Origin: Patiria pectinifera
Taxonomy: Eukaryota > Echinodermata > Asteroidea > Valvatida > Asterinidae
Direction: 5' to 3'
Assembly: GCA_029964075.1 (NCBI GenBank)
Contig: CM057148.1
Span: forward strand, 30,683,916 to 30,747,915
DNA length: 64,000 nt
Position numbers and translations under genes: made by a program. Shown here piece after piece: positions 11,747-54,511 of this stretch (its first letter is position 1; the number at the start of each line of letters is the position of its first letter). Under the pieces are notes generated by a model. It had not been told where the DNA came from. It was given only the letters and a program-made list of their open reading frames with translations, and did no database searches.

Positions 11747-14355
11747 TCATGATTTGTCTTTGTGAATTAGTCCACAAAAGGGTGGCTTCATCGTCTCTGT
11801 TCCTTTACCGTATAGTATTTCAGTGTACTTTTGTCTATCGTTTCTAACCAAGAAAGGTATTTTATCTTTCAGGCTATTTTTTAGGAAGACGCAAAATCCC
11901 CTTGGAATGTCACCGTGCAGTAGATACAGAGTTTTTATTTGAGCCCAGCCGATTCTTCCATCATCGCCGGTGTTCTTTTCTACGCTCTCAAACCCCTTGC
12001 GATTTACTTTATACAAAGACAATCGCAGTTCAGCCATGTTACTGATGGGTTTTCTCCAACGTTCCTCAAGCGATTTTGCAACTGCACAGAACGCATCATC
12101 ATCAAACTGCTTATTTAGACGAAGATCAAGCTTTTTCAACTTTGGAAAATATTCAGGTTCTCGTACAAAGTTGCAGATATCATCTGAGCTGAAAATTGTC
12201 CCCACAAGAACAACGTTTTCAAGCTTCGTCAGATACGACAGACATCGAACTAACTCGCTTGATGCACTTGTTTGGTGACTTTCACCAATTCCAGAACCCG
12301 ACCCCTGAAACCTTGACGACGACTGTGCAGTTTGATCAGGCTGGTTTGCAGGAGACGGTTCCTTTGCCCGCAGTTTGCGCAGTTCACCTGCCTGACCCTC
12401 CAGAAGCTCATAAAGACCCAACGAACGTACGGTACGAAGGACCCCGATGTCTGACTGGTCTGGGGAAAACTGAGGCATGTCTTTGTTTCTGGACTCTACT
12501 CTTTCACGCAACTTTGCCAGTGTCCCATTTTCTGAATATCTTTGTACCTCTTCAGTTTCCTGGATGTCCTTTTCTAGATTCAATGGGAAAAAGAAGTACT
12601 CAAAGTATTCCCGAAACTGTTCCCAGTCATCTTTCTCAAGTCGCAACAACTCAACAGATTCAATACACAAAGCAACACCTTCTACCGGTTTGTCTGCATG
12701 CTCGAACAAATACGACAGCATTCTGATCGTGTGACCAGAAACGCCTCCAAGACGAACCTTCCCTCCCTCAAAGAGGCCGGCAAACTTGGCATTCAACGAA
12801 CCTTTGCATTTTCCTTCAAAATTCAGCAGAAGACACAACCGGATCATTGTTTGCATACCGATGACATTGGTTGTGTCTTTTTTTGTGCAGTCTGCTATCA
12901 TTTGCACCAGTCCACTGCGAACAGTTTGACTCTTCCTACATGCAAACGAATACACATTTGACAACGTTTCAGCTGCACTCATCAAATCAGTGTGCTGAAG
13001 TTCAGCCATCCAGTTTCCATCTTCTTCAGCAGTATGAGCCAAGGAAAGACCAGCGCAGAAGTCCCGAAGTATTTCAAGGACAAAATAAACATCTGCATCT
13101 CCTTCACAACGGACAAGACCAACTTTAATTGCTACGTCTAAGATTACCTGACCGTTATCACACGTATTCACGAACTCTGCTTTGGAAAATGTAACTTTAC
13201 TTTCATGTTCAAACATCGTCGGCAGAATTACCTTTCCCAATTCTGCCAATATTTCAAGCTGTACTTTTGTTAGGCCTGTTACATCATCAAACTCTACAAG
13301 TTTGTTCAAAGCCTCATGTGTTCTGGTATCGTCATCGCATCTATCACTGCTTCCCTCAAACAAACATTTCACTAACCTAATTAACAAGTCGCCAATAGTC
13401 GGATCACCTTGGAAAGCCAGCCCATCAGTCCAAGACGATAACTGACAAAGAGTCGTTATGATAACGGGAAGACAAGCCACGTTCGGGTGTAGAATGTTTG
13501 CATCTAAGAAGCTGTGAATGATTGAATGAGTTCTTTGATTTTGATTTTCACAGCTGTTCTCCGATTTTTCACAATCGCTTTGTAAATTGGTATCGTCGTA
13601 ATTTCTACTAGTTTCAGTCTTATGCTTGCTGGTAATGCGATCTAATGCATCACACTGGCTTTCAACGTACGTCTTTGCACTTTGTTGCGTAAAACCATTA
13701 ATTGTTATGTGGCGCAGTTTATGGTGTTTGCTTGTTTCTTCAGCCAACCTTGTATGTCTTGCACTTATCACTATTTGACACCTCAAAAGACCTTGTTGCG
13801 TCATGATCTTCATGACGTTGTATATGTCGTTTGTGTCATTGCAGCCATCAACAAGAATGGCCACTTCGTCGGGGTGTGTCAAACAGTATTCATTGATCGA
13901 ATTTGCCCAATGCTTCGTGCCACCTTTAAGCATATATTGAACAACTGCTTGCCCAACATTTCTAGATTTTATGAGCATTTTCGCCGGCAAAACAAATACC
14001 ATCTTTTTCTGACCGAGTACTGCGTGCGGCTTTTCCAGTGACCAATCAGATGCCATTTTGCTTAAGAAGGCAGTTTTACCACAACCTGATCTACCTTCAA
14101 GGAGTACATGACAATTCGACAATTCAGAGATACCGTCATCAAAGATTTCAGACTCTGACTCTATTCTATATCTAGCTTTACAACCTGCAATAGATACATT
14201 GAGGTACATTTCCAGTGGTGTGTATACATCATCCATCGCTGCGTAGCTGTCATCACCTGTCACCCAAGGCGTGATGGGCAGTCTGTTCATTTTCTCTGAC
14301 ACAAACTCCCGGATCATAGTAGTGAGCGCCGACACGCTAAACTTTCTGGTAGGTT
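11747..14355 (-). CDS. Ig-NACHT gene exon 7: NACHT NTPase and leucine-rich C-terminus
   Basis: One 2609-base exon. It starts EPTRKFSVSALTTMI; the acceptor is TTTTTAACAG, so the upstream in-frame ATG at 14401 is intronic. A pre-NACHT segment with DDVYTPLEMYL is typical of invertebrate NOD-like receptors. P-loop GRSGCGKTAF, Walker B AILVDGCND, sensor-like IVISARHTRL and the INGFTQQSAKTYV motif follow in family order. A helical superdomain comes next, then leucine-rich stretches (LTKLENVVLVG, FPKLKKLDLRLN, MAELRLSL, IKTLYLLHGD) at the C-terminus; the repeats are few and irregular. The TGA stop is at 11749-11747. Confidence 0.9.
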
Positions 14356-17300
14356 CTGTTAAAAAAAAACCAAAGAATACAAATTTGCAATTCAGCGACA
14401 AGAATGGGACGAAGTAAATTTAAGCAATTATTTTGAACTCCAAATGTATACTCTCGCTCGGTACACACAAATATCTACACTGTGTGTGTAGCAAAAACCG
14501 GATAAACCTGAAAATTAAGAGACCTGCATTACTCGTGTAGTTTGATTTTGGTGATAAGAACTATTAAATGATAATTATTCAGAAAAGCACAATCCATGGC
14601 GTACAATCAAGTAAACATAAATACTGCATGATTACATCCACCAAAAATAGAGGCGTGTTTGAACGCCACTTACCAGTTTTAGGAATTGGGTGGTAGACAA
14701 CTTGTTCTCGATCGTGAGGTGGATTCCGTTTGCGTAGCTTCCACATCAAACATGCAGTGATACCAACGAGAACAAGTAAAGAAATATAGGCAAGTGCAGC
14801 TATGAGACCAATGTTAGAAGGCTTGATGGAATCTGTCAAAGTAAACAAGAAATGAATACAGCTGGTACAATGTTGCATTCTTCCGTCCCCAAAAACATAT
14901 TGAAAGAATGTTTGTGAGTTCCTGACATCCTGTAGACAGTGGACGTTGAGAGAAAAAAACCCACACAACTAGACATCCAGACGGATATCTGATAGCGATT
15001 ATCTAATAACTTCCTCATTTAGAAAACGTATATTGATTATAATCCGTTCAGCCTACCCGCATACATTATTTCATTGACAAGGGAACCAATCCTTTTGTAT
15101 AAAAAAGTTCTTAATGCCACAAGATACTCTCGAAATCTTACCTCTCATGATCACATCCACGTAGGACCTTTGTAACGCTTCGCCATGGGGAAAGAGAACC
15201 TTCAACTGTTAAGCCGAAGCAGGTGTGGCCGTTTATGTCAGACATCATTTTGGAGCCAGCCGGTAGGTCTAGTTTGCCAACCACAGTGGTCAGTTGTGCA
15301 TTAACAGCACCAAATGACCAAATCAACGTGGCTCTGCTACCTATAGGTACACCTTCAATGGCTGGACAGTGCAGTGTAAATTTGCTGTCAGATTCAAATG
15401 ATATGACGTCTCCGTTAGTTGCGCTTCCTCCATCCAACGGAAAAGAATCTCCTGTGTTAAAAACAAAATAACAAGTGACAACTCATTTGTTTAAGAAATA
15501 TGTCGCTAACGATGACCAAACTTAAATATATTGACACTTACTCAAAGAAGAACAAGTGAAACGTACACACAAAATTGCCGTAGATACAAACAATGTTATG
15601 CTCTAACGTCAATGCTCTAAAGTCAAATGAGCGTGCTCAACAAAAATTACCCCCAACAAAAAAGAAAAAGGAAATTACCAATAACACGGACTTCGACAAG
15701 TCCTTCATTGGATTCAGGGTTTGCAGAGCAGCTGTAGCTCCCAGCGTCATCCTCATCAACGGACTTGATTACCAGACCGAAGTCAAGAGCAAGGTCAAAC
15801 GATGGATCAGCATGAACAGTACTGGTGGACACCGTGTAATTGATGAGCAGATGGTGGCTAGAGATATCAACTTTAAACCATTGCACCAAACATGTTGCAT
15901 TGCCAGGTTTCCAAGTTGTACAAGGAATCATCTGCCTCGTTCCCTTCAGCAGGTAGAATGATGCTTCTGATGCTCTGAGAGGACCAAGCAATGGAGTCTC
16001 ACCTGGATTTCGAGAAAAAAAAGATGAGACAATTAATGTTTAATGTTTAACTTTGATTGTAAATGTGCAGGCATATCGAATGAGATCCTTTTCTGCAAGT
16101 TCCGAATATGACGTCCATATTACTTGGCGATGCTAGGGACAACGTTAAAAGTTAACAGTTTTCTGAATGTGATATTCATATAAAATTTCTATGATATTCA
16201 TATTTTAAGACCAAACATAAATAAGAACAAAATACCTAATACGTGGATATCTATGTAGCAATCGGTCTGTGATCCGTCTGACTGAAATACATGACACCAG
16301 AACCTCGCTGCATCGTGTAAAGCACTGACAGAATTAACTGTGAGTGTACCGTCGCTGTCAATGATGTAATCAACGTCATTTTGGAACTGTAATGTAGCAC
16401 CATCAGCGAAACGTGCGCCAATGATCTCTGTATCTTCAGTTATGCCTTCTCCCATTGACCAATACACTACGGATGTTGCGTTTGGTGTCAATGACGCGCA
16501 CTCACACGGTAGCGTCTGTATGCCTTCTCGCTGCAATTTAGCAGTTGACGATGTGTACTTGGTTATGGCCGGAAACGAGCCTCCTGAATTAATATAAACG
16601 CAACACAATAACAGTTCGTCAAAAAGCAGTCATACAAGGATATCTTCACATGCATTAATATAACTGTCAGTTATTAAGGGTTTTCAAACTTGATCAATGA
16701 AAAGGACTGGAGAGCGATTTGAGCCTGCACCATCAAGATTATAACAGCCGTTGGATTTGGATTATTTCAGAATATATTTTCTACATCCTTGATTCATATG
16801 ATGTCTGATTTATTTTGTCAAACATGTTAATACTACTAATGGAGGACTCGGCCATATGACATTATGACCATCTGACCGTCATTGTTGACATCATGATCAT
16901 GGTTGACAATGCAAGGTCAAAGGTCAAGGTCAAGGAAAAGGCACAGATGAGATCAAAAAATGTTTCCCCCTCAGATGTAGGATTTTAAGACAAGGAAGAG
17001 ACTCTTACATTACACTACAGAAACTGTTATATTGAGTAGGCCTTTGCTTCCTGAACTTGGCGACTGTGTACTGAACGGGCGGTTCCCTTGATTTAAAATA
17101 TAAGAACAAAATCCACTTTGACTTCATAGTTGGCATCATTGGGGATTGTGTAGTATGTTTTGGGTCTTCCATTCAATTTAAGCCACAATTTGCTTAGAAA
17201 TAATTTATAATTATCTAAGTATGAAGTCGTTAAACCAACATTTTGCCATTCTTTAAGCTGGCAGCCCATAGCGTCCTCATTTAAACTACTTTTATTTCCT

Positions 17301-20300
17301 TGTTTTTTTTTCATTCAGCAGTGCTACAAACGTATCTGTGATGTTTCCAGGATAGACCGTGCCGAAAGACTTGAAAAGAAACGACAACATGAAAGTCAAT
17401 GTATCTTTTCCTTTTTTTTCTATTGAGTCACATGAGCACACTCACTTGAAAATTATAACATGCCTAAAGCAGGGGCTGGTTGGAGATAGAGCCTTCCTCT
17501 ATACAACTTTACTATGAGTCACGGTTTCATAATTTTGTAGCTAAATCAAATTGGAAATTCTTGCAAACATATACAAGCCCTACTTTAGAATCGAAAAACT
17601 CTGAGAATTTGTTTCTCGTACAATTGAAAAAAAAACCTTCCATTTATTGCTTATGTTTATTTCTCAAGTTAAAACATGCAGTGCCAGGGGGTGGGAAATA
17701 ATGTTACTGTGTGTTTTCCTTTTTGACAATCCTTTCCTTTTTAAAGCGCTGACCGTGAAGCCAAACAAGTTTTTTTGGTAATTTGTAAGGGCTTCAAACA
17801 GTTTATTTCTTGTCGGTAATGTTCATGCTTACAGTCGTATTTGTTGTTGATCACATAGACTCTATTAATACATCCTTGATAGCTTTTTGCTACTGTAATT
17901 CCTTTGGGGGTGCAGACGATTGTCCACCAAGATGCTATGCAAAAGGCCCATTGTCTAAGTTGATGACTTTGTGCAGAGAAAAATGTTTCATATTTTATAT
18001 TAGAGGTATTCACCAATCCTTGTATACATTGTACTATGTTCTTAACAGCAGTTCTGGTTTTTTAAAGCTTGATGACATGTTTCGTGTTTTCCTTCAACCC
18101 TTCAAATGATTTGAAATTTAGACAACGGAACTCACTGTAGATAACGGATGTAGTTTCCAGATGCCAATGGATTTGACATTGAAAGATTCCTGTCTGTTCA
18201 CCATTTATGCAATGGCTAACCTTTATTGAGATGATATGAAGAAAAGAGGGGTGCCAGGTTGCAACAGTCTTCCCCGGAACGTGTTCAATATTTAAGACAG
18301 TTGATAAAAAATTAAAAGTACATATAATTGCAGTTTATTTTAATCCTCAAAAATATTGGCTCCACCAGAGACACAACCGCAAGCACTGTATTATATTTTT
18401 TTGCCAATCACAGTAATTATTTCTCAAGTATTTTTAATTACCGTTCGCCTTATTGTTTTTGTATGAATAAATATGCATAAAAGGCTAAAGTTATAAAACC
18501 CTGTGGTCATGTTAATTTTTTCATTCAGACTGAATTCATTCGTATTTGTGTCGGACCCTTTGTTGAATTTTATTTCATCATAAGTCAGAAATACTTTGTA
18601 GTTTTTAACCAGAAAGAAAATTGCAATTTAATATTCAATAATGCCCTATTAAGAAGTTCAGTAAAAAGGAATACATGTATTCTAAATGAAATAAAAACAA
18701 AAGGAGGAAACATTTGTGCTGAGGCTGGGAAAGGGCTTGTAGAATCGTCCTTGAATTTCAATGGGATGGAAAATGTGATATTTAAACCAAATATTTGAGC
18801 ATTAAAAGTCACCCCAAAATCCTTTTCTATCGAGTTTTGGCTCTGTAGAAACCCTTTTTAGCAAGCAACTGGAATAAAACAATCTTTCCCATTGAAAATG
18901 TGCACAGTTTCCCAATTCTGGTCAATAGAGGGCGCTTTTTTGAACTGCTGATTTAAATGCAAATATGTAAATGATTGGTCACTTTGGTTGGGGATTGTGG
19001 ATTTTAGGTTTTTCGTGATTCATATGGTCTAAGCTTATAACCTGCAAAATTTCACTTAGATCCGAGAGGTGCGCCAAGAAAATCAATTTCTGAGCACATT
19101 TTGAAGCCATGCCACGTGGTCTATATCCCAATGTTGTTATTTGCCAGCATTTTTAATGTTGCTGGCGTGGTGACTTTAGGTATGATCTCTGGCTACTTGG
19201 CATTGTGGATTTATGATCTCTGTCTAGCACCCCTGGAACAAAGACACTGAAAAAATGGGGATCCGCCAACATGATGGGGAAGTTCAAAAAAATAGTATAA
19301 TGCACCTAGTTAGTTTGTGATCTATTGAAAACAAGAGGAGTATCTTTACATTAGGATTGCGTTTTATTTATGTTGTTGAGCAAACCATTTTATCTGCCTG
19401 ACCAATGAGTCAAGTTGGTGCATACATTTTTGTTATACAACTTACCAAGAATGTCTAGACTGATTTCTCCTAGTCTATTAGCAGTTCCGTGTATTATGAC
19501 GAGACAAAGGTACTTTCCTTCATCCGATTCACTGACACCTTTAATCACGAGGGTGGAACCTGATGAAGTTGCATATCTGTCGCAGGAGGGAAGGTCTACA
19601 CCATTGGAGCGACTGATAAGTCGTTGTTTTGAAGGATCGTCCAGTGAATTTCCTTTGTACCAAATAACTCCCACTATGTCGGCACTTTCGCGGTGCGATG
19701 GACAGGGAATCCTGTGCCAAAGGCCGCTCTGTACATGTGCTTTACTTGTTGACTGGCTAATTGCATCATGAATAATCTCTTCTGAAATAAAATTTAAAAT
19801 ACATTTAGTGGTAGAAATATCAGTTTATTCTTTTCTAACCTTTTAATGACTTTCTCTGGAAGAACTTTAAGACAAGCATATCGTAAGAAAAGTGTGGTAA
19901 TTTAGCGCTCCCTCAAAACCCTTGCTCTTTTCACGAAGACACTGGAATATCGTATAAAGTCCTTATGTTACCTTTCATCAATTTATAGGACTTTTGGTTT
20001 CATTTTAGGCTTCACATTAATGAAATTGTAAACCCCATTTCCTTTATGTAGCTTGCTCTACAGATTATTTCCTGTTATACATGAATTGATTAAAAAGTAA
20101 AGGGTTGGAGTCATATTACTCATTTCTCCTACTATTTTCCTTCCTGGAACAAACAAGAAGGCAAACCTGAAGACGAATTCTAGTCTACAGAGAATTGCCT
20201 CCGGAAATTCATGAGAAAGGCTAACGTTAAAAAAATATAGTAGAACAGGAATGCAAGAGGATCTATGCCTCTGCTTACTCAACATTTCGAGTGCAGTCCA

Positions 20301-20456
20301 AATGTTAAATGAAACGTTATCCAACTATAGCTTATTGGCATGCCCGACTCTTCATGGAATGCATGGGCGATATAACTTACCAGCTCCTAGAGGACATATG
20401 TCATAAGCAGCAGACAGGCTGCTTGCAAAGATAGCAGTCGCTATGAATACATACAT
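11747..20456 (-). CDS. Transmembrane receptor with four Ig domains and a cytoplasmic NACHT-LRR module (seven coding exons)
   Basis: Joining seven exons (20456-20381, 19781-19446, 16583-16236, 16002-15679, 15451-15142, 14832-14674, 14355-11747) gives about 1386 residues. These comprise a signal peptide (about 1-18), four Ig-like domains (about 26-464), one membrane helix (472-495), a short basic tail, a NACHT NTPase (P-loop about 605-612, Walker B about 683-692) and a C-terminal part with degenerate leucine-rich segments. All six introns are phase 1 with GT-AG ends. The Ig part should face outside and the NACHT part the cytosol. NACHT domains are ATP-driven oligomerisation switches, so ligand binding outside could drive assembly inside; this is inference. 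No CARD, PYD or death domain is visible. The fourth Ig exon carries one extra base, so this copy may be alternatively spliced, polymorphic or decaying. Confidence 0.85.
14674..14832 (-). CDS. Ig-NACHT gene exon 6: transmembrane helix and juxtamembrane tail
   Basis: 159 bases, phase 1/1. It encodes DSIKPSN, then about 24 hydrophobic residues (IGLIAALAYISLLVLVGITA and four more), then the stop-transfer run KLRKRN and the tail EQVVYHPIPKT. The positive-inside rule puts the tail in the cytosol. VVYHPI fits the ITIM-type consensus (V/I/L-x-Y-x-x-I/L/V). It splices exactly in phase to the NACHT exon. Confidence 0.85.
15142..15451 (-). CDS. Ig-NACHT gene exon 5: Ig-like domain 4, with a one-base frameshift
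   Basis: The exon opens with GDSFPLDGG, has FTLHCPAI, LIWSFGA and HTCFGLTV, and then runs out of frame. The expected end, SYVDVIMRG just before the strong donor GTAAG, lies in another frame. Exon length is 310 bases, one more than a multiple of three, whereas the other internal exons divide by three. A weak donor at 15199 (GAAG then GTTCTC) would give a 252-base exon that keeps the frame but drops the last strand. So this is a true mutation, an assembly error, or a case of alternative splicing. Confidence 0.75.
15679..16002 (-). CDS. Ig-NACHT gene exon 4: Ig-like domain 3
   Basis: 324 bases, phase 1/1. Pattern: QMIPCTT, CLVQWFK, then the textbook F-strand DDAGSYSC and the end VEVRVIG before GTAATT. 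Sequons NAT and NYT suggest glycosylation. Of the four domains it is the most typical Ig fold. Confidence 0.85.
16236..16583 (-). CDS. Ig-NACHT gene exon 3: Ig-like domain 2
   Basis: 348 bases, phase 1/1. The Cys pair and Trp are in TLPCEC, VVYWSMG and ARFWCHV, and the domain closes with CYIDIHVLG before GTATTT. It has an N-glycosylation sequon (NAT) and extra cysteines that could form a second bridge. The acceptor is ATTAATTCAG. Confidence 0.82.
16584..19445 (-). other. Intron 2 of the Ig-NACHT gene
   Basis: 2862-base intron between Ig domains 1 and 2. It holds no further Ig-like exon that I could find; frames at 17093-17314 and 17741-18109 resemble nothing. Three AGGTCA half-sites occur at 16914-16932. 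Confidence 0.6.
16914..16932 (+). promoter_or_regulatory. Cluster of AGGTCA half-sites (DR1 plus DR0)
   Basis: The sequence reads AGGTCA-A-AGGTCA-AGGTCA. AGGTCA repeats spaced by one base are the consensus for RXR/HNF4-class nuclear receptors. It lies in intron 2 of the Ig-NACHT gene. Binding is not shown; a chance repeat is possible. Confidence 0.3.
19446..19781 (-). CDS. Ig-NACHT gene exon 2: Ig-like domain 1
   Basis: 336 bases, phase 1 at both ends. It shows the canonical Ig pattern: a B-strand Cys (HRIPCPS), a C-strand Trp (GVIWYKG), a long loop and the F-strand motif DEGKYLC, then a G-strand ending in ISLDILG just before GTAAGT. The acceptor is TTATTTCAG. The V-set/I-set type is not decided. 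The 2.9-kb intron after this exon is the longest of the gene. Confidence 0.85.
20381..20456 (-). CDS. Ig-NACHT gene exon 1: signal peptide
   Basis: The ATG at 20456 starts MYVFIATAIFASSLSAAYD, a short hydrophobic core followed by small residues, as in a cleavable secretion signal (cleavage probably near residue 17). The exon ends in GGAGCTG before GTAAGT, giving a phase 1 junction that joins to the next exon as a Glu codon. A good acceptor (TTCCTACAG) precedes the ATG at 20479, so a 5' untranslated exon probably lies upstream and the transcription start is not in this exon. Confidence 0.75.
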
Positions 20457-28289: not shown

Positions 28290-28333
28290 TTCTTCTTCTT
28301 CTTCTTCTTCTTCTTCTTCTTCTTCTTCTTCTT
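28290..28333. repeat. (TTC)n microsatellite
   Basis: About 14 TTC repeats. A shorter array sits at the same place in the sister unit (32170-32186). The long Phe/Ser and poly-Glu frames over it are artefacts. Confidence 0.9.
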
Positions 28334-30183
28334 TTTGTCGCCTAAATCCCATAGACTTTGTACACGTTTTTTCTACACGCCACTTTTGACATTTATCTTT
28401 GTCATACGTCATTCAAAGTTAGCATAGTCATAGTCCTTATGGCAGAGATGTGCCCCGAAGAGTGTCGTCATGATGACGTCATCGACTAATTTATTATAGA
28501 TTTTTGAATATTTAATTTTTCCCATAGACTTTGTACACAAAATTTTAAAAAAAATTGTCGGTTTTCAAAGGACATTTTCGACTGTTTGCCAGTAATTCAT
28601 TTACACCAAACTTTGTTAAAGCAAAGACCCTAATTCAAACAACATTGTGTAATGATGACGTCATGATGACGTCATCAGGTGTTTATTTATAGGCAATTAA
28701 ATTGTGACACTTTTAATATTTAAAAATGCATAAGAAATCAACAGTACGCGTCCGCAGCATTCTGTTGCCGGCAAGTGGTAGAGTAGGTCGAGGTCTTTAT
28801 TTCTTTCAGTGTGCGTGAAATCACGTGACCCTTGCTTCCGGTCGAAAAAGGCCCTAACCGGAAGTGGCTTATTATTTGAAAGTGGTAATAGAAATGAACT
28901 TGCTTTTAACGGTGTTAGTCTCTTGGCCAATAGTATTCTTCAAATCATTTACCAATGACGTCATGCAATCTTCAAGCGCCCTCTAGCGACAGGTTAAAAA
29001 TTAGCAAAAATGTATTTTGAATAGATGTCTGTGGCGAAGTTTGTCGGAATCGCCTAAATATTGGTGTATATAATGACCTTGGCCACCTTAAGACGTGTGC
29101 GAAGTTTTAGGCGATCGACGTCATCAGACCGGAAGTTATAATGAAAAGACCCTTTTTCATTTGAAAATTCCTGAAAAATCAACCATGGCAGTTTTTATAT
29201 TTGTTTTTACTTTAATTGTTGATTGAAGGGTAGGTCTAAAACATTTCAAAGTTTCCAGGCGATAAGCGAACTCGAACATACCCTGCGCACGCTTAAAACT
29301 TCACCTTGACAATACCTCTGCTTCAAAACATGCACAGGACAGGACGTCCACAATGTACATGTACATGCACGTACGTTGTACATAGGCACATACATCGTAT
29401 GTCAGTCAGCCTGCAGCGCACGTGTTGCTGAGGTCAAATCCTGTCCACAGTGACCGTTTTAGCCGATTTTCGGCTAACTTTGACAGATTTTATGTTCCTG
29501 CATGCGCATAGACAGTGACGTATTATAGCACTTTTGGCATTAATCTTTGTCAGATATCATTGAAAGTTGGCATAAGCATAGTCCCTATAGCCAAGATGTG
29601 TCCCGAAGAGTGACGTCATGGTGACGTCATCAAGTGATTTATTATGGATTTATGAATAATTAATTTTTCTCATAGACTTTGTACACAGCTTTCTCCACAA
29701 GTATTTCCCTATACAAACTGATATATCTTACTGAGTAGTTCTGAACTTCGGCTGAGAATTACTATGAGAAGGAAAAAGAAATCGTATTTTTACGCCTGTC
29801 ATTTGATTGAAAATATTCCCAAGAGTTAGAATAGCAAGTAATATTTTATAAAAATGTTTCAGTTTAAAGGAAAATCACGCATTTAAAGGTGCAGTTTTTC
29901 TGCTGTGGAGTTTTAACCTATTGACTTTTCCCCTTTTTTAAGCCACCATTTTCATAACTTGGCGATCTGGAATCGTCATCAAAGTTACAGCCAAGGAAGA
30001 TCCTCATACAACAATTATGCCAAGACTACGACATCATGATGACGTCATCTTCAAGTGATTTATTATGGATTCATGAATAATTAATTTTTCTCATAGACTT
30101 TGTACACAGCTTTTTCCACAAGTCTTTTCCTATACAACACTGATATATCTTACTGAGTAGTTCTGAACTTCGGCTGAGAATTA

Positions 30184-31162
30184 TACGGAAGCTTAAAGTG
30201 ACCATCCGAGTTTCCAAGTTTCCGAGATAATTTATCTCGGAACGACGGAATACTGAGATAAAAACATGTCTTTTCGTGATATCGCATCTCGGAAAAACGT
30301 CTTTCCCGGAATTCGTATCTCAGAAAGACGTCTTTGCCCAATATCACATCACGGAATGACATCTTTCCCAGAAATCGTATCTCAGAAAGACGTCTTTCCC
30401 TGATGTCGTATCTCGGAAAGACATCTTCTCCTGATATCGTATCTCAGAAAGACGTCTTTCCTTGATATTGTATCTCGGAAAGACGTCATTCCCTGATATC
30501 GTTTCTCAGAAAGACGTATTTCCGACATACGATATCAAGGATAGACGTCTTTCCGAGATGATATATGAGAGAAAGACGTCTTAAGATGTTATATCAGGTG
30601 AAAACGTCTTTTCAAGATAAGATATTAGAGAAAGAACGTCTTTCCGAGATGAAAGACGTCTTTCCGAGATACAATATCAGGGGGAAACGTCTTTCTGAGA
30701 TAAGATATGAGAGAAAGACGTCTTTCCGCCAGGGAAAGACGTCTTTCCGGGATATCATATCAAGGAAAGACGTCTTTCTGAGATGATATCAGAGAAAGAC
30801 GTCTTTCCGAGATGTTATATCAGGGAAAGACGTCTTTCAGAGATACGATATCAAGGAAAGACGTCTTTCCGAGATGATATAAGAGAAAGACGTCTTTCCG
30901 AGATGTTATATCAGGAAAAGATGTCCTTCCGAAATGCAATATCAGTGAAAGCCGTCTTTCCGAGATACCATATCAGGGAAAGACGTCTTTCCGAGATACG
31001 ATATCAGGAAAAGACGTCTTTCCGAGATACCATATCAGGGAAAGACGTCTTTCCAAGACACGATATCAGGGAAACACGTCATAAATATCTTAGTAATCCA
31101 TCTTTCTGAGATAAATCATCAAAGAAACGTGGAAACTCGAATGGTCACTTTAAGCTTCCGTA
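30184..31162. mobile_element. 979-bp foldback element made of AGACGTCT palindromic repeats
   Basis: Terminal inverted repeats start TACGGAAGCTTAAAGTGACC and match the right end over 32 bp with one mismatch. GAATTA flanks both sides (30178-30183 and 31163-31168) as a 6-bp target duplication. Sister repeats at 29757, 33608 and 34036 show the empty site GAGAATTACTATGAG. The interior is a tandem array of roughly 30-bp units centred on GGAAAGACGTCTTTCC. Left of about 30520 they read CTCGGAAAGACGTC..CCTGATATC, right of it the complement, so the whole element can form one giant hairpin. Confidence 0.85.
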
Positions 31163-32162
31163 GAATTACTATGAGAAGGAAAAAGAAATCGTATTTTTTT
31201 ACGTTAACCATTTGATTGAAAATATTCCCAAGAGTCAGAATATCAAGTAATATTTTATAAAAATGTTTCAGTTTAAAGGCAAATCACGTATTTAAAGGTG
31301 CAGTTTTTCTGCTGTGGGATTTTTAACCCATTGACTTTGTACACGTTTTCAAGCCACCATTTTTATAACTTGGCGATCTGGAATCGTCATCAAAGTTACA
31401 GCCAAGGAAGACCCTCATACAAAAATTATGCCAAGACTATGACGTCACGATGACGTCATCACCTATTTTTTTTATTGATTTTTGAAAATTTACGTACATA
31501 TTGTGAAGTCTTATATCTACAGAAATGTAAGTCCGATTGGGTTGAAACTTGGTATGTGGCTATACCAGGAAGTGTTATAGATTAAAAATGAGGTGACGTC
31601 ATGATGACGTCATCCTGAGATTTTATATGAATATTTATTTGTTTTGACCTTTTAGCCATATCTCCCGAATGCAACATGCAAAATGCAAAATTCTTTTTTG
31701 CATTTGGTCTGTTATGTAATAGCTATTCGTACAAAACTTGAAAAATGTGTGACGTCATCATGACGGAATCAAAATGCCATTTTTCAAAACTCATATAAGG
31801 AAAGGTCCAATTGTCATGAAACTTGGTGGGTAGGTAGTTAATCATACTAGTATGCAAAGTTCGAAATGACGTCACGATGACGTCATCAAAAATTTAAAAA
31901 TAATTGTCGATTTTTAAAGTGCGTTTTCGACTCTTGCCAGTAATTTATTTAGATCACTCTTTGTCCAAGCAAACACCTTGTACACACGCACATACATCGT
32001 ATTGCCAAGGTGAAATCCTGTCCACAGTGACCGTTTTAGCTGATTTTTCGGCTAACTTTGACAGATTTTATGTTCATGCATATTCAGGGCATATTATTGA
32101 TAAAAAAAAATCATAATGCGGAAAAGCCCTATGTTCTGTTGCAAACAGACATAGATCTCTAG

Positions 32163-35027
32163 TTTTTCTTTCTTCTTCTTCTTCTTTTTGTCGCCTAAAT
32201 CCCATAGACTTTGTACACGTTTTTTCTCAGTGCCACTTTTGGTACTAATCTTTGTCATACATCATTCAAATTAAGCATAGTCATAGTCCTTATAGCAGAG
32301 ATGTGCCCCGAAGAGTGACGTCATGGTGACGTCATCGACTAATTTATTATAGATTTTTGAATATTTAATTTGTCCCATAGACTTTGAACACAAAAATTAA
32401 GGAAAAAATGTCGATTTTCAAAGGGCATTTTCGACTGTTTGCCAGTAATTCATTTATATCACTCTTTGTCCAAGCAAAGACCCTATTTCAAACAACATTG
32501 TGTAATGATGACGTCATGATGACGTCATCAGGTGTTTATTTATAGGCAATTAAATTGTGACACTTTTAATATTTAAAAATGCATAAGAAATCAACCGTAC
32601 GCGTCCGCAGCATTCTGTTGCCGGCAAGTGGTAGAGTAGGTTAAGGTCTTTATTTCATTCAGTGTACGTGAAATCACGTGACCCTCGCTTCCGGTCGAAA
32701 AAGGCCCAAACCGGAAGTGGCTTATTATTTAAAAGTGGTAATAGAAATGAACTTGCTTTTAACGGTGTTAGTCTCTTGGCCGATAGTAGCCTTCAAATCA
32801 TCTACCGATGACGTCATGCAATCTTCGAGCGCCCTCTAGCGACAGGTTGAAAATTAGCAAAAATGTATTTTGAATAGATGTCTGTGGCGAAGTTTGTCGG
32901 AATCGCCTAAATAATGGTGTATATAATGACCTTGACCACCCTAAGACATGTGCGAAGTTTTAGGCGAATGACGTCATCAGACCGGAAGTTATAATGAAAA
33001 GACCCTTTTTCATTTGAAAATTCCTAAAAAATCAACCATGGCAGTTTTTATATTTGTTTTTACTTTAATTGTTGATTGGAGGGTAGGTCTGAAACATTTC
33101 AAAGTTTCGAGGCGATAAGCGAACTTGAACATACCCTGCGCAAGCTTAACACTTCACGTTGACAATACCTCTGCTTCAAAACATGCACAGGACAGGACGT
33201 CCACAATGTACATGTATATGCACGTACGTTGTACATAGGCACATACATCGTAGTCAGTCAGCCTGCAGCGCACGTGTTGCTGAGGTCAAATCCTGTCCAC
33301 AGTGACCGTTTTAGCCGATTTTCGGCTAACTTTGACAGATTTTATGTTCATGCATGCGCATAGACAGGGACGTATTATAGCACTTTTGGCATTAATCTTC
33401 GTCAGATATCATTGAAAGTTGGCATAAACATAGTCCCTATAGCCAAGTTTTGTCCCGAAGAGTGCAACAGGGTGACGTCTTCATGTGATTTATTATGGAT
33501 TTATGATTAATTAATTTTTCTCATAGACTTTGTACACAGCTTTCTCCACAAGTCTTTCCCTATACAACACTGATATATTTTACTGAGTAGTTCGGAACTT
33601 CGGCTGAGAATTACTATGAGAAGGAAAAAGAAATCGTATTTTTTTACGCCTGTCATTTGATTGAAAATATTCCCAAGAGTTAGAATAGCAAGTAATATTT
33701 TATAAAAATGTTTCAGTTTAAAGGAAAATCACGCATTTAAAGGTGCAGTTTTTCTGCTGTGGGATTTTTAACCTATTGACTTTGTATACGTTTTCAAGCC
33801 ACCATTTTTATAACTTGGCGATCTGGAATCGTCATCAAAGTTACAGCCAAGGAAGACCCTCATACAAAAATTATGCCAAGGCTATGACATCATGATGACG
33901 TCATCATCAAGTGATTTATTATGGATTCATGAATAATTAATTTTTCTCATAGACTTTGTACACAGCTTTCTCCACAAGTCTTTTCCTATACAACACTGAT
34001 ATATCTTACTGAGTAGTTCTGAACTTCGGCCGAGAATTACTATGAGAAGGAAAAAGAAATCGTATTTTTACGTTTGCCATTTGATTGAAAATATTCCCAG
34101 GAGTTAGAATAGCAAGTAATATTTTATAAAATGTTTCAGTTTAAAGGCAAATCACGTATTTAAAGGTGCAGTTTTTCTGCTGTGGGATTTTAACCCATTG
34201 ACTTTGTACAGGTTTTCAAGCCACAATTTTTATAACTTGGCGACCTGGAATCGTCATCAAAGTTACAGCTAAGGAAGACCTCATACACAAATTATGCCAA
34301 GACTATGACGTCACGATGACGTCATCACCTAATTTTTTATTGATTTTGAATATTTACGTACATATTGTGAAGTCTTATATCTACAGAAATGTAAGTCCGA
34401 TTGGGTTGAAACTTGGTATGTGGCTATACCAGGATGTGTTATAGATTAAAAATGAGGTGACGTCATGATGACGTCATTCTGAGATTTTATATGAATATTT
34501 ATTTGTTTGGACCTTTTAGCCATATCTCCCGAACGCAACATGCAAAATGCAAAATTCTTTTTTGCATTTGGTCTGTTATGTAATAGCTATTCGCACAAAA
34601 CTTGAAAAATGTGTTACGTCATCATGACGTCATCAAAATGCGATTTTTCAAAACTCATATTAGGAAAGGTCCAATTGTCATGAAATTTGGTGGGTAGGTA
34701 GTCAATCATACTAGTATGCAAAGTTCGAAGTGACGTCACGATGACGTCATCAAAAATTTAAAAATAATTGTCGATTTTCAAAGTGCGTTTTCGACTCTTT
34801 GCCAGTAATTTATTAAGATCACTCTTTGTCCAAGCAAAGATCTTGTACACGCGCACATACATCGTATTGCCGAGGTCAAATCCTGTCCACAGTGACCGTT
34901 TTAGCCGATTTTTCGGGTAACTTTGACATATTTTATGTTCATGCATATTCAAGGCATATTATTGATTAAAAAAAATTATGATGCGGAAAAGCCTTATGTT
35001 CTGTTGCAAACAGACATAGACCTCTAG
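32163..35027 (+). mobile_element. Helitron-like unit B (2.9 kb)
   Basis: Direct head-to-tail duplicate of unit A. It begins right after CTAG of unit A with TTTTTCTTTCTTCTTC and ends with the hairpin TATGTTCTG..CAGACATA and CTAG at 35024-35027. It carries about a dozen TGACGTCA palindromes. It lacks the foldback element. Differences from A are scattered substitutions and small indels, so the duplication is not recent. Confidence 0.55.
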
Positions 35028-36178
35028 TTTTTTTTCTTATTTGTCCACTTTTGTCATATGTTTTGTACACGTTTTTCTTCTACCCATACACTTTGGCATT
35101 TTCGTAAATGCCATCGACTTCAGACTAGGCACACACTTAGACCAACACCCACAGATGGTCCTAGAAGAAATTTGTGATCATGACATCATCAAGTGTCAGG
35201 TTACGTAACATTAAAGGTGCATTTTTACTCCATAGGTTTTGTACACGTTTTCCTTCAATCAGTACATTTTGGCACTTTCATAGATCTGATTGACTTCAGA
35301 CTTGGCAGACACGCATATCACCAACCGCAGATGGTCCTATAAGGTTTTCGTCATGTTGACGTCATCAGGTGTCATGTGAGGGCGCCCTAACTTTGCATTT
35401 GTTGCAGCCCTGTAACTTTGCAAGTATGGGTCCGATTGCGTTGAAACTTTGCATGCCCTCACATTGGGGCGTGTTTCGTGTGGCAATATAGGTGACGTCA
35501 TCGCGACGTCATTAGCTGTCATGTGAGGGCGCCCTAACTTTGAATAATTTCCATATTCCCACGAGTATGCATCCAATTTGGTTGAAGCTTTGCATTCACA
35601 CAAACTTGAATCCGTTATACACCAGAATATAGGTTAAGTCAAGGTGACGTCATTGGTCGTCATGTGAGGGCGCCCTAACATAGCATCATTTGCAGCCCTA
35701 TATCTTTGTGAGCATGGGTCCCATTGCGTTGAAACTTTGAATGCCCTTGAAATTCGTGATCGTGACGTCATCAGGTGTCACGTTACTTTACATTAAAGAT
35801 GCACATTTTCCCTAAATGTTTTGTACACGTTTTAAAACAGTCCACCTTGGCACCTTCATAAATGCGATCAACCTCAGACTTAATACATACTTAGACCACC
35901 ACCCACAGATGGTCCAAGAAGAAATTTGTGATTGTGACATCATCAGGTGTCAGGTTACGTCACATTAAAGATGCATTTTTCCCCCATATGTTTTGTACAC
36001 GTTTTAAAACACTCCAGTTTGGCATCTTCGTAAATCCGGTTATAACTTGACATGTATGTATAATATGCTGTTATACATGTAGATGTCATTTTAAGTGACG
36101 TCACTGATTGTGCATCACGTGCACAGAGTATTTCGAATAACCGAAACAGCTTGTGTTTGTCCACAAACACATCTCTAG
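35028..36178 (+). mobile_element. Helitron-like unit C (about 1.15 kb)
   Basis: Ends with the hairpin TGTGTTTGTCCACAAACACA and CTAG at 36175-36178. Its body repeats a module of about 175-200 bp: ATGTTTTGTACACGTTTT, CGATTGACTTCAGACTTGG, CCACCACCCACAGATGGTCC, GACGTCATCAGGTGTCAGG. TGACGTCA and near variants recur. Confidence 0.5.
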
Positions 36179-37228
36179 TTTCTTTTTTTTCTCCTTTTTC
36201 AGACTTTTTCTCCATAGGTTTAACACACGTTTCTTCTACCAGTCCACTTTGCCACTTTTTAAAATCCGATTGATTTCAGACTTGGTACATACTTAGACCA
36301 CCACCCACAGATGGTCCTAGAAGAAATTTGTGATCGTGACGTCATCAGGTGTCAGGTTACGTCACATTAAAGATGCATTTTTCCCCATATGTTTTGTACA
36401 CGTTTTAAAACACTCCAGTTTGGCATAGTCTTCGTAAATCCGATCGACTTTTAAACTTAATTCATACTTAGACCACCACCCAAAGATGGTCCTAGACGAA
36501 ATTCGTGATCGTGACGTCATGAAGTGTCAGGTTACGTCACATTAAAGACGCATTTTCCCCATAGGGTTTGTACATGTTTTAAAACGCTCCATTTCGGCAT
36601 TTTCGTAAATTTGATCAACTATATACTTGGTACACACTTAGACTACTACCCATAGATGGTCCTAGAAGAAATTCGTCATCGTGGCGTCATGAGGTGTCAG
36701 GTTACGTCACATTAAAGATGCATTATTTCCCTATTGCTTTTGTACACGTTTTTCTTCAAACTTCCACTTCTATACATGTATTTCTGATTGACTTTACACT
36801 TGTCAGACACTAGTAAGACCAGCAGCCTAAGATGGTCCCCAGTGAGTTTGTAACGATGACATCATCATGTATCACGTGACGTGACATTAAATGAGCATTT
36901 CTTCGAATCGCTATAACTTCGGATGTACAAGTCCGATTGGATTAAAACTTGGTATGCACATTCACAAGGATGTGTTATAGATGAAAATTGGAGTGACGTC
37001 ATCACCAAATGTCATGTGACGTCCCTTAAAGAGGCATTTTATTCTTGTATAGGCCTATATCTACAGAACTACATGTATAATGTTCGATTTGGTTGTAACT
37101 TGACATGTACGTATTATAATGTGCTGTTATAGATGACATTTACAGTGACGTCACTGATTGTTCGTCACGTGCACAGAGTATTTCAAATATCCGAAACAGC
37201 TTGTGTTTGTCCACAAACACATTTCTAG
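36179..37228 (+). mobile_element. Helitron-like unit D (about 1.05 kb)
   Basis: Same modules as unit C, with four CCACCACC/ACTACTACCC..GATGGTCCTAG modules in a row, then CATCACCAAATGTCATGTGACG, and the identical terminal hairpin with CTAG at 37225-37228 followed by T. It is the last unit of the array. Confidence 0.5.
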
Positions 37229-42681: not shown

Positions 42682-42917
42682 CAGGTAATAATTATCGTTT
42701 CGGTTTGCGGTAACACCATGTGGTAATAACTACTGCTTAGAAGATATTAGTTCTGAAAAGAACTTGTCCTGCTTATTATCAACTTTGCTAAGTAGTTTTT
42801 TGTTCTGATAAGAACAGTCCTGCTGTAAGTTCTACAAACTTGTCTTTGGTCTCAACGTTTCGACTAGCCTGCTCTAGTCATCGTCAGGAGACTGAAGATA
42901 GTTTGAGATGCTACTCC

Positions 42918-43440
42918 TTAAGTAGGATTTGTTAGGATTAGGAGTGCTTGCTGGGCATGCCCTGCTCGCTCGGGTGTGTCAGTTGGTTGTGAGGCTTGGG
43001 CATTGTGTTGAGGGATGCCCGCTGAGCGTCCTGCTCGCTCGACTGTGTCAGTTGGCTGTGAGCCTTGGGCATTGTGTTGAGGGATGCCCGCTGAGCGTCC
43101 TGCTCGCTCAGGTGTGTCAGTTGGCTGTGAGCCACGGGTGTTGCAACTTGGAATAACTGAATGCCAAATGTTGCTTATGAAATAGCCGATATCTTGTGGG
43201 ACAGTGTCATGTTTGTGGATCTCAATAGCTTCTCTGATACGACGGGTGTACCAGTGTTTCTCTGGGGCTATAATTTCCGCTTGTTCCCAATCCACAACAT
43301 GATCCAGATCAGCAGAGTGTTTGACAATTGCCGATTTGTCAAGTTCCCCTCTGCGGCCGTGAGCTATGTGTTCTTTAAGCCTGGTAGTGAGGTTTCTTCC
43401 GGTCTCGCCAATGTACACTTTGCCACATGAGCAAGGAATT
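42918..43440 (-). pseudogene. Penelope-like GIY-YIG endonuclease, left arm
   Basis: The frame contains VYIGETGRNLTTRLKEH, the GIY-YIG-type core with its conserved Arg, then HSADLDHVVDWEQAEIIAPE and RRIREAIEIHKH. The C-terminus carries three repeats of about 24 residues (SQPTDTPERAGRSAGIPQHN type). The frame is offset from the upstream RT frame by a shift near 43390. In Penelope-like elements this domain makes the nick that primes reverse transcription. Confidence 0.85.
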
Positions 43441-44020
43441 CGGTAAACTCCTGCTTGACTTCTCGGGTTGTGCTTGTCTTTGTGGGTGTACGATTTCGTT
43501 TCGAGTTTGTTGCGAGTTCGGTAGTAGACCTTAATATTGGCTTCACGGAGGATTCGCTGGATCTTGCATGGCCAATATACGGAAGGACTGCAACCGGCAT
43601 GTCGGGTGTGTTCAGCGTGTGTGACATGCTCGAATCCGGTGCGAGGCTGTGTTTCTTTGGTCTGTACCCATTGTCTCTTAGCACTTTATTGAGGTGCTTC
43701 AGTTCGGATTGTAGGTGTTCATCATCACTGATGATATGTGCCCTTCGAAGTAGGGTGCGGTTCACCGAGGTTTTCACTGATGGTGGGTGGAATGAACGAG
43801 CATTGAGGTATCGGTCTGTATGTGTAGGTTTCCTGTATACAGAGTGCCCAAGTGAACCATCTGCCCGTTTGGAAATGAGTACATCAAGGAAAGGCAATGA
43901 ATCGGATGTCTCAGTTTCCATGGTGAATTGTATACTCGGGTGTTGTTGGTTGAGATGGCGGAGGAAACCATCGAGCCTGTCCGGGCCATGTGGCCATATA
44001 ATGAATGTATCATCTACGTA
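43364..44020 (-). pseudogene. Penelope-like reverse transcriptase, C-terminal part
   Basis: About 44018-43925 reads RYVDDTFIIWPHGPDRLDGF, holding the catalytic YVDD. The frame 43921-43364 continues FLDVLISKRADGSLGHSVYR, KPTHTDRYLNARSFHP and the thumb/connector region up to TREVKQEFTEFLAHVAKC. RT motifs 1 to 4 upstream of YVDD are absent because the inverted arm begins there. It cannot be active. Confidence 0.85.
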
Positions 44021-44593
44021 TCGAAGTCATGTGGCAAAGTGTACATTGGCGAGACCGGCAGGAACCTCACTACCAGGCTTAAAGAACACATAGCTCACGG
44101 CCGCAGAGGGGAACTTGACAAATCGGCAATTGTCAAACACTCTGCTGATCTGGATCATGTTGTGGATTGGGAACAAGCGGAAATTATAGCCCCAGAGAAA
44201 CACTGGTACACCCGTCATGTCAGAGAAGCTATTGAGATCCACAAACATGACACTGTCCCACAAGATATCGGCTATTTCATAAGCAACATTTGGCATTCAG
44301 TTATTCCAAGTTGCAACACCCGTGGCTCACAGCCAACTGACACACCTGAGCGAGCAGGACGCTCAGCGGGCATCCCTCAACACAATGCCCAAGGCTCACA
44401 GCCAACTGACACAGTCGAGCGAGCAGGACGCTCAGCGGGCATCCCTCAACACAATGCCCAAGCCTCACAACCAACTGACACACCCGAGCGAGCAGGGCAT
44501 GCCCAGCAAGCACTCCCAATCCTAACAAATCCTACTCAAGGAGTAGCATCTCAAACTATCTTCAGTCTCCTGACGATGACTAGAGCAGGCTAG
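44015..44593 (+). pseudogene. Penelope-like GIY-YIG endonuclease, right arm
   Basis: Nearly identical to the left-arm domain (KVYIGETGRNLTTRLKEH, DLDHVVDWEQAE, RHVREAIEIHKH, three SQPTDT-type repeats). It joins the RT segment at 44020-44027 in opposite orientation, with no RT of its own. Confidence 0.85.
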
Positions 44594-44600
44594 TCGAAAC
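44570..44600 (+). ncRNA. Hammerhead-like core in the Penelope-like 3' region
   Basis: CTGACGA, a perfect 6-bp stem GACTAG/CTAGTC with an AGCAGG loop, then GAAAC. This is the order CUGANGA - stem II - GAAA of the hammerhead ribozyme, which is known from Penelope-like elements. One extra U sits between CTGACGA and stem II, and helix III would be very short, so activity is doubtful. The same motif lies inverted near 42858-42888. Confidence 0.35.
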
Positions 44601-44814
44601 GTTGAGACCAAAGACAAGTTCGTAGAACTTACAGCAGGACTGTTCTTATCAGAACAAAAAACTACTTAGCAAAGTTGATAATAAGCAGGACAAGTTCTCT
44701 TCAGAACTAATATCTTCTAAGCAGTAGTTATTGCCACATGGTGTTACCGCAAACCGAAACGATACCGATACCCCACCATGCAAAGCCTCAAATCTTATAT
44801 CAGGTAATAATTAT

Positions 44815-51652: not shown

Positions 51653-52255
51653 CTACTTGTAGTTCCCAGGAGGATAGAGGGGGGCCTCTGGATTGAGCGC
51701 AAAAAAGGCAAGCCCATTATGCAAGTTTTCGACGAACAACACATTGCCTGACGTGGACAAGTGCAGACCATCTCGCCAATACACTGAGTGTTGAGATGGA
51801 TTTATGTTATGTGCATGCGCAATGGCGCACGCGTTGCCCAATTGGCAGCAAAGCTTATGAGCGAATCTGTTTAGGGCACCCACATTCGTTTTGCCTACAC
51901 TATGCTTTAGCTCTCCATAATAAAACAGCCTCAACAAGATGTCTGACCACACGATCCGAGTGGCTGGCAACAAGTGACGAATATTTCGTAGACCCTCCTC
52001 TATCCCGATGCGAATTTCTTTTACGGGCATATTGAACACGTCATTAGTTCCTAGATGAATGACAAGAGTACTAGGAGCCGGCTCTCTTTTGAGATGACGC
52101 TGACGGTGGACACCAGTGCTGATATCCTAGCTCCCCGAACACCGAACCACTTAAGGCATCCAGTTGATGAGCATCGAGGATCCGACTGACCCGCCCAGAA
52201 CATAATGCTATCCCCAACAACCCACCCATGTGTGAGTTGTGCCTGTAGGGAATAT
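51653..52255 (-). pseudogene. SGNH/GDSL hydrolase frame of the Ngaro-like element
   Basis: The upstream part (about 52240-52100) has WVVGDSIMFWAG, the nucleophile block GDS. After a frameshift near 52085 come TLVIHLGTND (the GxND block), IVWSDILLRL and finally WRDGLHLSTSGN with the catalytic D-x-x-H. These are all the blocks of an SGNH esterase. The role in the element's life cycle is unknown. Confidence 0.75.
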
Positions 52256-53481: not shown

Positions 53482-53908
53482 TTATTTGGGGGCACTTGGA
53501 AGTCTGATATTAATGATGGCGACTACTGCCTCGTTATCCGATCGGATCAATATTCGCTTCCCAGAGAGACCCCCACCCCAGAGTGTCAGTGCTACGGCTA
53601 TGGGAAAGAATTCCAACCAAGCGATAGAGTGCGCCAAAGACAGCACAGATTGGGTCCAGGTGTCCCGGAACCACAGCCACAGCACGGCAAATGAATGAGA
53701 GTGAACCAATGAGAGATTGGAGTGATTTCAATGTGACTTTTTTTGATTGGGATGCCGCCGTGACTTTCTCAAATATGTTGCGCAGTTTGTCCCCCGGAAC
53801 TGATACCATTTGAGTCACTGAGTTTATTTCTAGACCCAAGAATGTCAACTGAGTAGTTGGCTCGACTGTTTTGTCTTCTGCCAGTGGGACCCCTAGTTCA
53901 CTGCACAC
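53482..53908 (-). pseudogene. RT thumb and RNase H-like region
   Basis: The thumb segment LTFLGLEINSVTQMVSVPG and VTLKSLQSLIGSLSFICRAV is followed, in a second frame, by FFPIAVALTLWGGGLSGKR and RSDNEAVVAIIN. The latter resembles the last RNase H motifs, where SDN supplies an acidic catalytic residue. The two parts are out of frame. Confidence 0.7.
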
Positions 53909-54452
53909 ATCTTTGAAGCAGTTGAGAATTGTGTGACACGACGACCTGCCTAATGAATATATCCCCCCCTACAAACAGAAAATCGTCAGCGTAGTGGCAG
54001 ATGCACTCGGACCTAGACCGCTTTCTTACAGCCCATTCTAAGAACGTGGAAAACGTTTCAAACAAAGCTGGGGCGCAGGAGGCCCCAATGGGTAAGGCCT
54101 TGTCTACATAACACTTGTCATGCAATTTAATGCCCAACAGGCAAAAATCCTCTGGATGAATTGGTAGCAGACGAAATGCTGATTTTATATCGGCTTTGGC
54201 CAACAGCGCGCCTTTCACAGCCCCGACTACAAGTTTAATTGCATCGTCAAAATTTGTGTACTGCACAGCACAAAGCTGTCTTTCTATCCCATCATTTACG
54301 GAACCCGACTCTGGATATGACAGATTGTGAATTAATCTGAAGCTGCCAGGGACGGCTTTTGGAATGAGCCCGATGGGGGAGATTCTTAAATTCGGAATCG
54401 GCTTTTCTGAGAATGGCCCTTCCATGCGACCCATCCTGACTTCCTCAGACAA
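53898..54452 (-). pseudogene. Ngaro-like reverse transcriptase
   Basis: RT landmarks in order: RISPIGLIPKAVPGSFRLIH, LAKADIKSAFRLLPIHPED, GASCAPALFETFSTFLEWA and the catalytic CHYADDFLFVGG. The end of the RT continues in the next frame as TTQLTFLGLEIN (53908-53534), so a frameshift lies near 53900. Confidence 0.88.
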
Positions 54453-54511
54453 CTTCTTAAGCGCAGCGGCACCGTTTTGAGTAACGGACTGAGGATAAGG
54501 AGCATCTGCAC

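Follow-up and report, generated by a model that had tools for sequence, protein, structure and literature searches.

The window, a stretch of 64,000 nt from the 613.5-Mb genome of the sea star Patiria pectinifera (contig C20:30683916-30747915), carries on its minus strand a gene of seven exons, running from an ATG start codon at 20456 to a stop codon that ends at 11747 (Table 1). The exons, E1–E7, are 76, 336, 348, 324, 310, 159 and 2606 nt long, the last excluding its stop; the lengths of E2, E3, E4 and E6 are divisible by three, and the 310 nt of E5 leave a remainder of one. We consider it probable that this locus belongs, as a damaged copy, to a large family of type I membrane receptors, whose chain would comprise a signal peptide, four immunoglobulin (Ig) domains, a transmembrane (TM) helix and a NACHT–winged helix–HD2 module with a leucine-rich-repeat (LRR)-like tail.

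An earlier note on this DNA had proposed the minus-strand gene, with its seven exons and GT-AG borders, and its coordinates were confirmed on the sequence. The signal-peptide-like start in exon 1, the membrane helix followed by KLRKRN in exon 6, and the P-loop GRSGCGKT and Walker B region AILVDGCND in exon 7 are likewise present. Two of its claims fail at exon 5. The exons are not all in phase 1, as E5 is entered in phase 1 but changes frame between its start and its end; and of the four Cys-Trp-Cys patterns, those of Ig1–Ig3 stand, whereas in Ig4 the second Ig cysteine is deleted. The cysteine of the Ig4 motif HTCFGLT does complete a Cys-Trp-Cys pattern, but it is a different cysteine, also found in the aligned paralogs.

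Table 1. Exons of the Ig–NACHT gene, in positions of the window
Exon	Content	Position	Strand	Evidence
1	Start codon and signal-peptide-like hydrophobic segment, ending in phase 1	20381..20456	-	Conserved in paralogs L010, L042 and L043
2	Ig1, membrane-distal	19446..19781	-	V-set 25.1 bits (E 2.2e-5); by position at 15/15 close units
3	Ig2	16236..16583	-	V-set 22.5 bits (E 1.4e-4); related exon upstream of 47/49 listed NACHT exons
4	Ig3	15679..16002	-	V-set 26.3 bits, above cut-off
5	Ig4, broken; 310 nt against 363 nt in paralogs	15142..15451	-	Paralog alignment
6	Single TM helix and basic KLRKRN stop-transfer	14674..14832	-	Stop codon of the straight join at 14816-14814
7	Cytosolic NACHT–winged helix–HD2–LRR-like module, 868 aa	11747..14355	-	Stop codon 11749-11747

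Of the Ig exons in the window copy, exon 4 alone passes the Pfam cut-off for the V-set profile (26 bits), and no Ig domain was found by Pfam in exon 5 at E 1. The NACHT domain of exon 7 scores 49.1 bits against a cut-off of 26.7 and was matched at E 0.1 or better in all 21 aligned relatives, in which residues G87, G90, G92, K93 and D169 are invariant. Exon 7 has two of the features by which NLRs (NOD-like receptors) are recognized: a NACHT domain with Walker A, followed by a winged helix and HD2. No LRR was matched by Pfam in the window's exon 7, and each of the LRR models listed was matched weakly in only one of the 21 relatives. The AlphaFold model of exon 7 nevertheless ends in a C-terminal beta-alpha repeat that aligns with the NOD2 and NLRP3 chains beyond their NACHT part, and also with tropomodulin. 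A search of exon 7 against the PDB by sequence returned only two DNAJC3 chains (E 0.16-0.19), while its predicted fold matches NLRC4, NLRP3 and NOD2. Exon 7 is thus predicted to have an NLR fold, which the cytosolic module would share with these vertebrate receptors. NLRC4, NLRP3 and NOD2 of vertebrates are cytosolic and carry a CARD or PYD where the Ig–TM part stands here. A death-fold effector N-terminal to NACHT gave no Pfam hit at E 1 in window exons 1-5 and 7; the exon preceding NACHT is the TM helix, in the place where a canonical NLR would have its death-fold domain.

The window copy is one of many. The genome search with exon 7 scored 52 of 443 candidates, and the family size is therefore a lower bound. 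At least 15 close copies, the window's included, were found, 14 on C20 and one on C14; most are 74-88% identical to exon 7, and two short C-terminal pieces among them are 66-69% identical. Distant copies on C20, with 34 distant NACHT exons among the matches listed, are ∼36-46% identical over the NACHT part. Linkage was counted by setting 49 NACHT exons, each represented by one N-terminal piece per copy, against 150 E3-type Ig exon matches. An E3-type exon lies within 12 kb upstream on the same strand at 47 of these 49 NACHT exons, at a median distance of 2.3 kb; none lies upstream on the opposite strand, and five lie downstream, by start position. At all 15 close units, that is, the close NACHT exons with their upstream exons, Ig1, Ig2 and TM exons are found upstream on the same strand, the TM exon 202-434 nt from the NACHT exon match; exon 2 was assigned at these units by reading positions. 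Chance resemblance of the exons was considered and ruled out by this recurrence of exons 2, 3, 6 and 7, in order, at 15 of 15 close units.

When four paralogs were tried, E1–E7 of three gave open joined chains, 1427, 1436 and 1344 aa long, with GT-AG introns in phase 1 and a hydrophobic segment at aa 3-21; in the fourth, E1 was absent from the stretch fetched. The nearest intact joined paralog, C20:30749187-30755941, starts ∼1.3 kb past the right end of the window. The claim of the earlier note that Ig domains, a TM helix and NACHT lie on one chain accordingly holds for three paralogs and for sea-star gene models, and fails for the very copy on which it was made, whose frame is broken in exon 5. 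For the close family, exon order and reading frames make the single-chain arrangement Ig ×4–TM–NACHT very highly probable.

The gene models in question came from three protein searches, in which 14 proteins combined Ig domains with a P-loop, four from Acanthaster planci (P0001, P0002, P0012 and P0014) and the others from Patiria miniata (P0003-P0011 and P0013). The Ig–NACHT models of these two sea stars have the same chain order as the close family, the order that the earlier note had proposed to search for. In all 14, a simple hydropathy window places a hydrophobic segment after the Ig region and ahead of the P-loop. Precomputed Pfam assignments include NACHT in 12 of them, P0005 and P0011 being the exceptions; a Pfam scan of P0003, P0005, P0006 and P0014 gave NACHT above cut-off together with Ig in all but P0005, where NACHT falls below the cut-off. 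P0002-P0014 are 37-46% identical to the neighbour paralog. P0001 is 38% identical to that paralog and 32% to the window's exon 7; it was not among the 16 matches of the neighbour-paralog search and came from the other searches. All 14 are annotated only as ‘uncharacterized’ or ‘Ig-like domain-containing’.

Three further proteins depart from this pattern. P0015 (Patiria miniata LOC119725511) has four Ig-like FxC/YxC motifs ahead of a TM segment and, by eye, a C-terminal repeat region, and lacks a P-loop; the model is either mis-spliced or that of a receptor without NACHT. In P0016, too, Ig domains and a TM segment occur without a P-loop. The precomputed domains of P0017 include NACHT but not Ig.

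What distinguishes the window copy is a lesion in exon 5. Alignment with 11 paralogous exons revealed a single clean 53-nt gap, unique to the window, all 11 other exons having these 53 nt; the gap removes the FWC strand of Ig4, with its second Ig cysteine. Compared with an Acanthaster relative, exon 5 stays in one frame up to the motif GSL, lacks the following ∼20 residues, including the F-strand YWC, and then resumes in another frame. Straight splicing consequently ends the chain at residue 470, upstream of the membrane helix: as assembled, the window copy codes for a shortened chain that includes neither the membrane helix nor NACHT. The stop codon lies 140 nt ahead of the last exon junction. 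By the 50-nt rule, a stop that far before the last junction is expected to bring about decay of the message; unless splicing leaves out exon 5, the truncated message is thus likely to be lost to nonsense-mediated decay. Most likely the window copy itself does not make the full receptor.

Judged against the nearest paralog and eight others, the private changes in exon 7 of the window copy number 15 synonymous to 29 non-synonymous, as compared with 19.5 to 36.5 in the nearest paralog (ratio of non-synonymous to synonymous sites, 3.6). This constraint, as in the nearest paralog, indicates that the damage is recent or allelic. Damage was found in three of the 15 close units read: in E5 of the window copy, in E5 and E7 of C20:31193811, and in E7 of C20:32137695. 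In a birth-and-death family, the window copy is best regarded as a member that was damaged recently or as an allelic null. Because its Ig4 exon is broken as assembled, it should not be cloned as the type specimen of the family; intact neighbours exist.

Two other explanations of the lesion, each of which we regard as unlikely, were weighed against this. The first is that the window copy still works, either by skipping exon 5 to give a three-Ig receptor or through the 470-aa straight product as a secreted decoy. Joining the gene without exon 5 does give an open chain of 1283 aa with three Ig domains and no internal stop; coding change in exon 7 is no more relaxed than in the nearest paralog; and Acanthaster P0001, an isoform X2, lacks Ig1, passing directly from its signal part to the Ig2 equivalent and continuing to NACHT. 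Nevertheless, 13 of the 14 other close units keep exon 5 whole, the remaining one, C20:31193811, having a frame break of its own, and the expected decay of the straight message also counts against this reading. The second is that the 53-nt gap is an artefact of assembly or haplotype and the gene an ordinary intact member. All its other exons are open, and constraint on exon 7 looks unchanged; but base-calling errors do not usually take the form of a clean gap of 53 nt between normal flanks, and the different frame breaks in two other family copies indicate that damage in this family is not rare.

A third possibility, that two adjacent genes, an Ig–TM receptor and a separate cytosolic NACHT gene, have been wrongly joined, draws on exon 7, which has an acceptor of its own and could contain internal start codons, on E3-like Ig exons for which no E7-type exon follows within 15 kb (100 of 150 matches, a count inflated because only 52 of the 443 E7 candidates were scored) and on the absence of a TM match at the 34 distant NACHT exons; but it is very improbable and was rejected, as the E6–E7 phase-1 junction is in frame in all three fully joined paralogs, the TM exon lies within a few hundred nucleotides of NACHT at every close unit, the 14 P-loop-bearing sea-star models are single chains with a hydrophobic segment between, and the sea cucumber receptor AjNLRC4, discussed below, is reported as one chain. 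Exon linkage, open spliced frames across E1–E7 and one-chain gene models together answer the two-gene objection as far as DNA can.

Several parts of the family were also found in isolation. The TM exon was matched beyond the close units once only, alone on C14, where C14:29290543-29290695 and 29292094-29292174 hold a lone TM exon of the family and one of its Ig fragments, at a distance of ∼93-96 kb from the C14 copy; these are likely a remnant. At C20:32013520 and 31935405 are orphan pieces of Ig1 that contain stops. Contigs C19, C6 and C21, and C20 at 5-7 and 21-22 Mb, have many E2- and E3-like Ig exons with no E7-type NACHT exon nearby among the 52 candidates scored; a 10-kb stretch of C19 (L061) holds Ig3- and Ig4-type frames, with nothing NACHT-like by eye among its 12 open frames of at least 80 aa. 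The Ig ectodomain seems to be shared with receptors having other tails.

The earlier note knew of no characterization of surface NLRs of this kind. The class has nevertheless been characterized: AjNLRC4 and AjNLR-new of Apostichopus japonicus and the V-set NLRs of Chiridota heheva are already published. AjNLRC4 (accession MN607598) has Ig regions at 31-132 and 251-353, NACHT at 600-757 and TM segments at 483-503 and 776-795. It is reported to reside on the coelomocyte surface, to bind microbes there through its Ig part, and to dimerise and be internalised upon infection, its NACHT part binding actin (PMC8699970). It is also reported to mediate phagocytosis of Vibrio and caspase-dependent lysis, its Ig part binding caspase after internalisation (PMC8699970, PMC11932488), and to form an inflammasome-like complex with caspase-1 that leads to MLKL cleavage (PMC11932488). 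The likeness to the family described here lies in the arrangement of Ig outside, membrane helix and NACHT inside, which was found in three of the four paralogs tried and in the sea-star models; in the neighbour paralog the helix at 492-510 and the P-loop at 623 are near the AjNLRC4 register. AjNLRC4 differs in that two Ig regions are reported rather than four, although their spacing leaves room for more, in its second predicted TM segment, and in that LRR is reported absent.

The other known cases are less close. AjNLR-new (PMC13133943) is similarly a membrane receptor with Ig, TM and NACHT on one chain, but an inverted topology is reported for it, with NACHT outside and Ig inside, the Ig lying within two TM segments. 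In the holothurian Chiridota heheva, NLRs with an immunoglobulin V-set domain were counted only, and the passages compared give neither a TM segment nor a domain order for them (PMC8913654). Sea-anemone NLRs have membrane segments, as here, but these are three to five in number and N-terminal, and the part of the report available describes no Ig ectodomain (PMC5094078). In the literature searched (titles and the starts of abstracts of open-licence articles), no description of Ig–NACHT arrays in sea stars was found.

If the family works as AjNLRC4 is reported to do, the Ig ectodomain would bind microbial or self surface ligands, clustering or dimerisation would bring NACHT modules together under the membrane, and the engaged modules would drive phagocytosis or lytic cell-death signalling. 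By analogy with AjNLRC4, we give this mechanism an even chance of applying to the family.

A number of observations weigh against the receptor reading or its extension to function. The one-chain structure has as its basis DNA and gene models, and the NLR fold a structure prediction. Only the close group and the gene models of the two sea stars show membrane anchoring; the TM exon found no match at the 34 distant NACHT exons, although the query helix is short and the helix of the distant copies may simply have diverged. In NACHT proteins the Walker B motif typically reads DGxDE; the DGCND region departs from this, and may turn over ATP only weakly. As noted above, a haplotype difference or an assembly fault could also account for the 53-nt gap. 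The link to AjNLRC4 is one of domain coordinates, rather than of sequence, and all Ig-plus-NACHT proteins returned by our searches came from the two sea stars. Furthermore, the reported outputs of AjNLRC4, actin and caspase binding, are not a NACHT-wheel mechanism.

The exons of the family have diverged at unequal rates. Divergence was computed from 14 genes for Ig1, 15 for Ig2, 11 for Ig3, 13 for Ig4 and 15 for the TM exon, leaving out exon copies with a stop, with <58% identity or with <90% of the length. The rate of non-synonymous change (dN) was 0.164 for Ig1, 0.079 for Ig2, 0.046 for Ig3, 0.070 for Ig4 and 0.113 for the TM exon, so that dN of Ig1 is 2.1-3.6 times that of Ig2–4. In five genes, exon 7 showed dN of 0.077 over the first 250 alignment columns (NACHT) and 0.160, with omega 0.52, over columns 620-902 (the LRR-like tail), as compared with 0.182 and omega 0.79 for Ig1 of the same genes. 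Of the Ig exons, the distal one thus changes fastest, with the tail of exon 7 close behind. There is no support for strong positive selection on Ig1, because its omega, 0.63 (0.47-0.86), overlaps that of the other exons (Ig2, 0.41; Ig3, 0.51; Ig4, 0.37; TM exon, 0.66), all intervals overlapping.

We conclude that the locus is a damaged copy within a large expansion, probably an asteroid one, of a receptor type already known. More tentatively, and at slightly less than even odds in our estimation, sea stars would possess at least 47 Ig-linked NACHT loci, mainly on one chromosome and, at the loci tested, anchored at the surface. Their outermost Ig and LRR-like tail would diversify and their NACHT core be conserved, so as to form a germline-diversified system of surface-to-NACHT recognition subject to birth and death. 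The scale of such a repertoire appears undescribed in the literature found. Our results suggest that a surface-NLR design known gene by gene in sea cucumbers exists as a large clustered family here and in sea stars. Least expected were how large the array is and how unevenly its exons change. With every junction of the series Ig, Ig, Ig, Ig, TM, NACHT in phase 1, the exon grammar of the family is uniform and permits exons to be shuffled and skipped, and the family offers a testable system in which an outside ligand would switch a NACHT module.

Elsewhere in the window, an inverted repeat of 738 nt has arms at 42693-43430 and 44027-44764 that are 99% complementary and 596 nt apart; both arms carry GIY-YIG reading frames, one above and one below the Pfam cut-off, and the whole (42693-44764) looks like a Penelope-type mobile element. 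On the minus strand, a 363-aa frame at 24725-25816 matches an endonuclease/exonuclease/phosphatase domain (33.2 bits), presumably as in non-LTR retrotransposons; a reverse-transcriptase fragment (RVT_1, 39.2 bits) lies at 53898-54533, with further open frames nearby at 54512-54973 and 55360-55983; and a 157-aa frame at 51653-52126 gives a GDSL lipase/acylhydrolase match below cut-off. Dense direct repeats occupy 28317-36752, with 31-nt units at 30247-31115 and repeat families of 212-300 nt that are spaced 2.4-3.9 kb apart at 91-97% identity.

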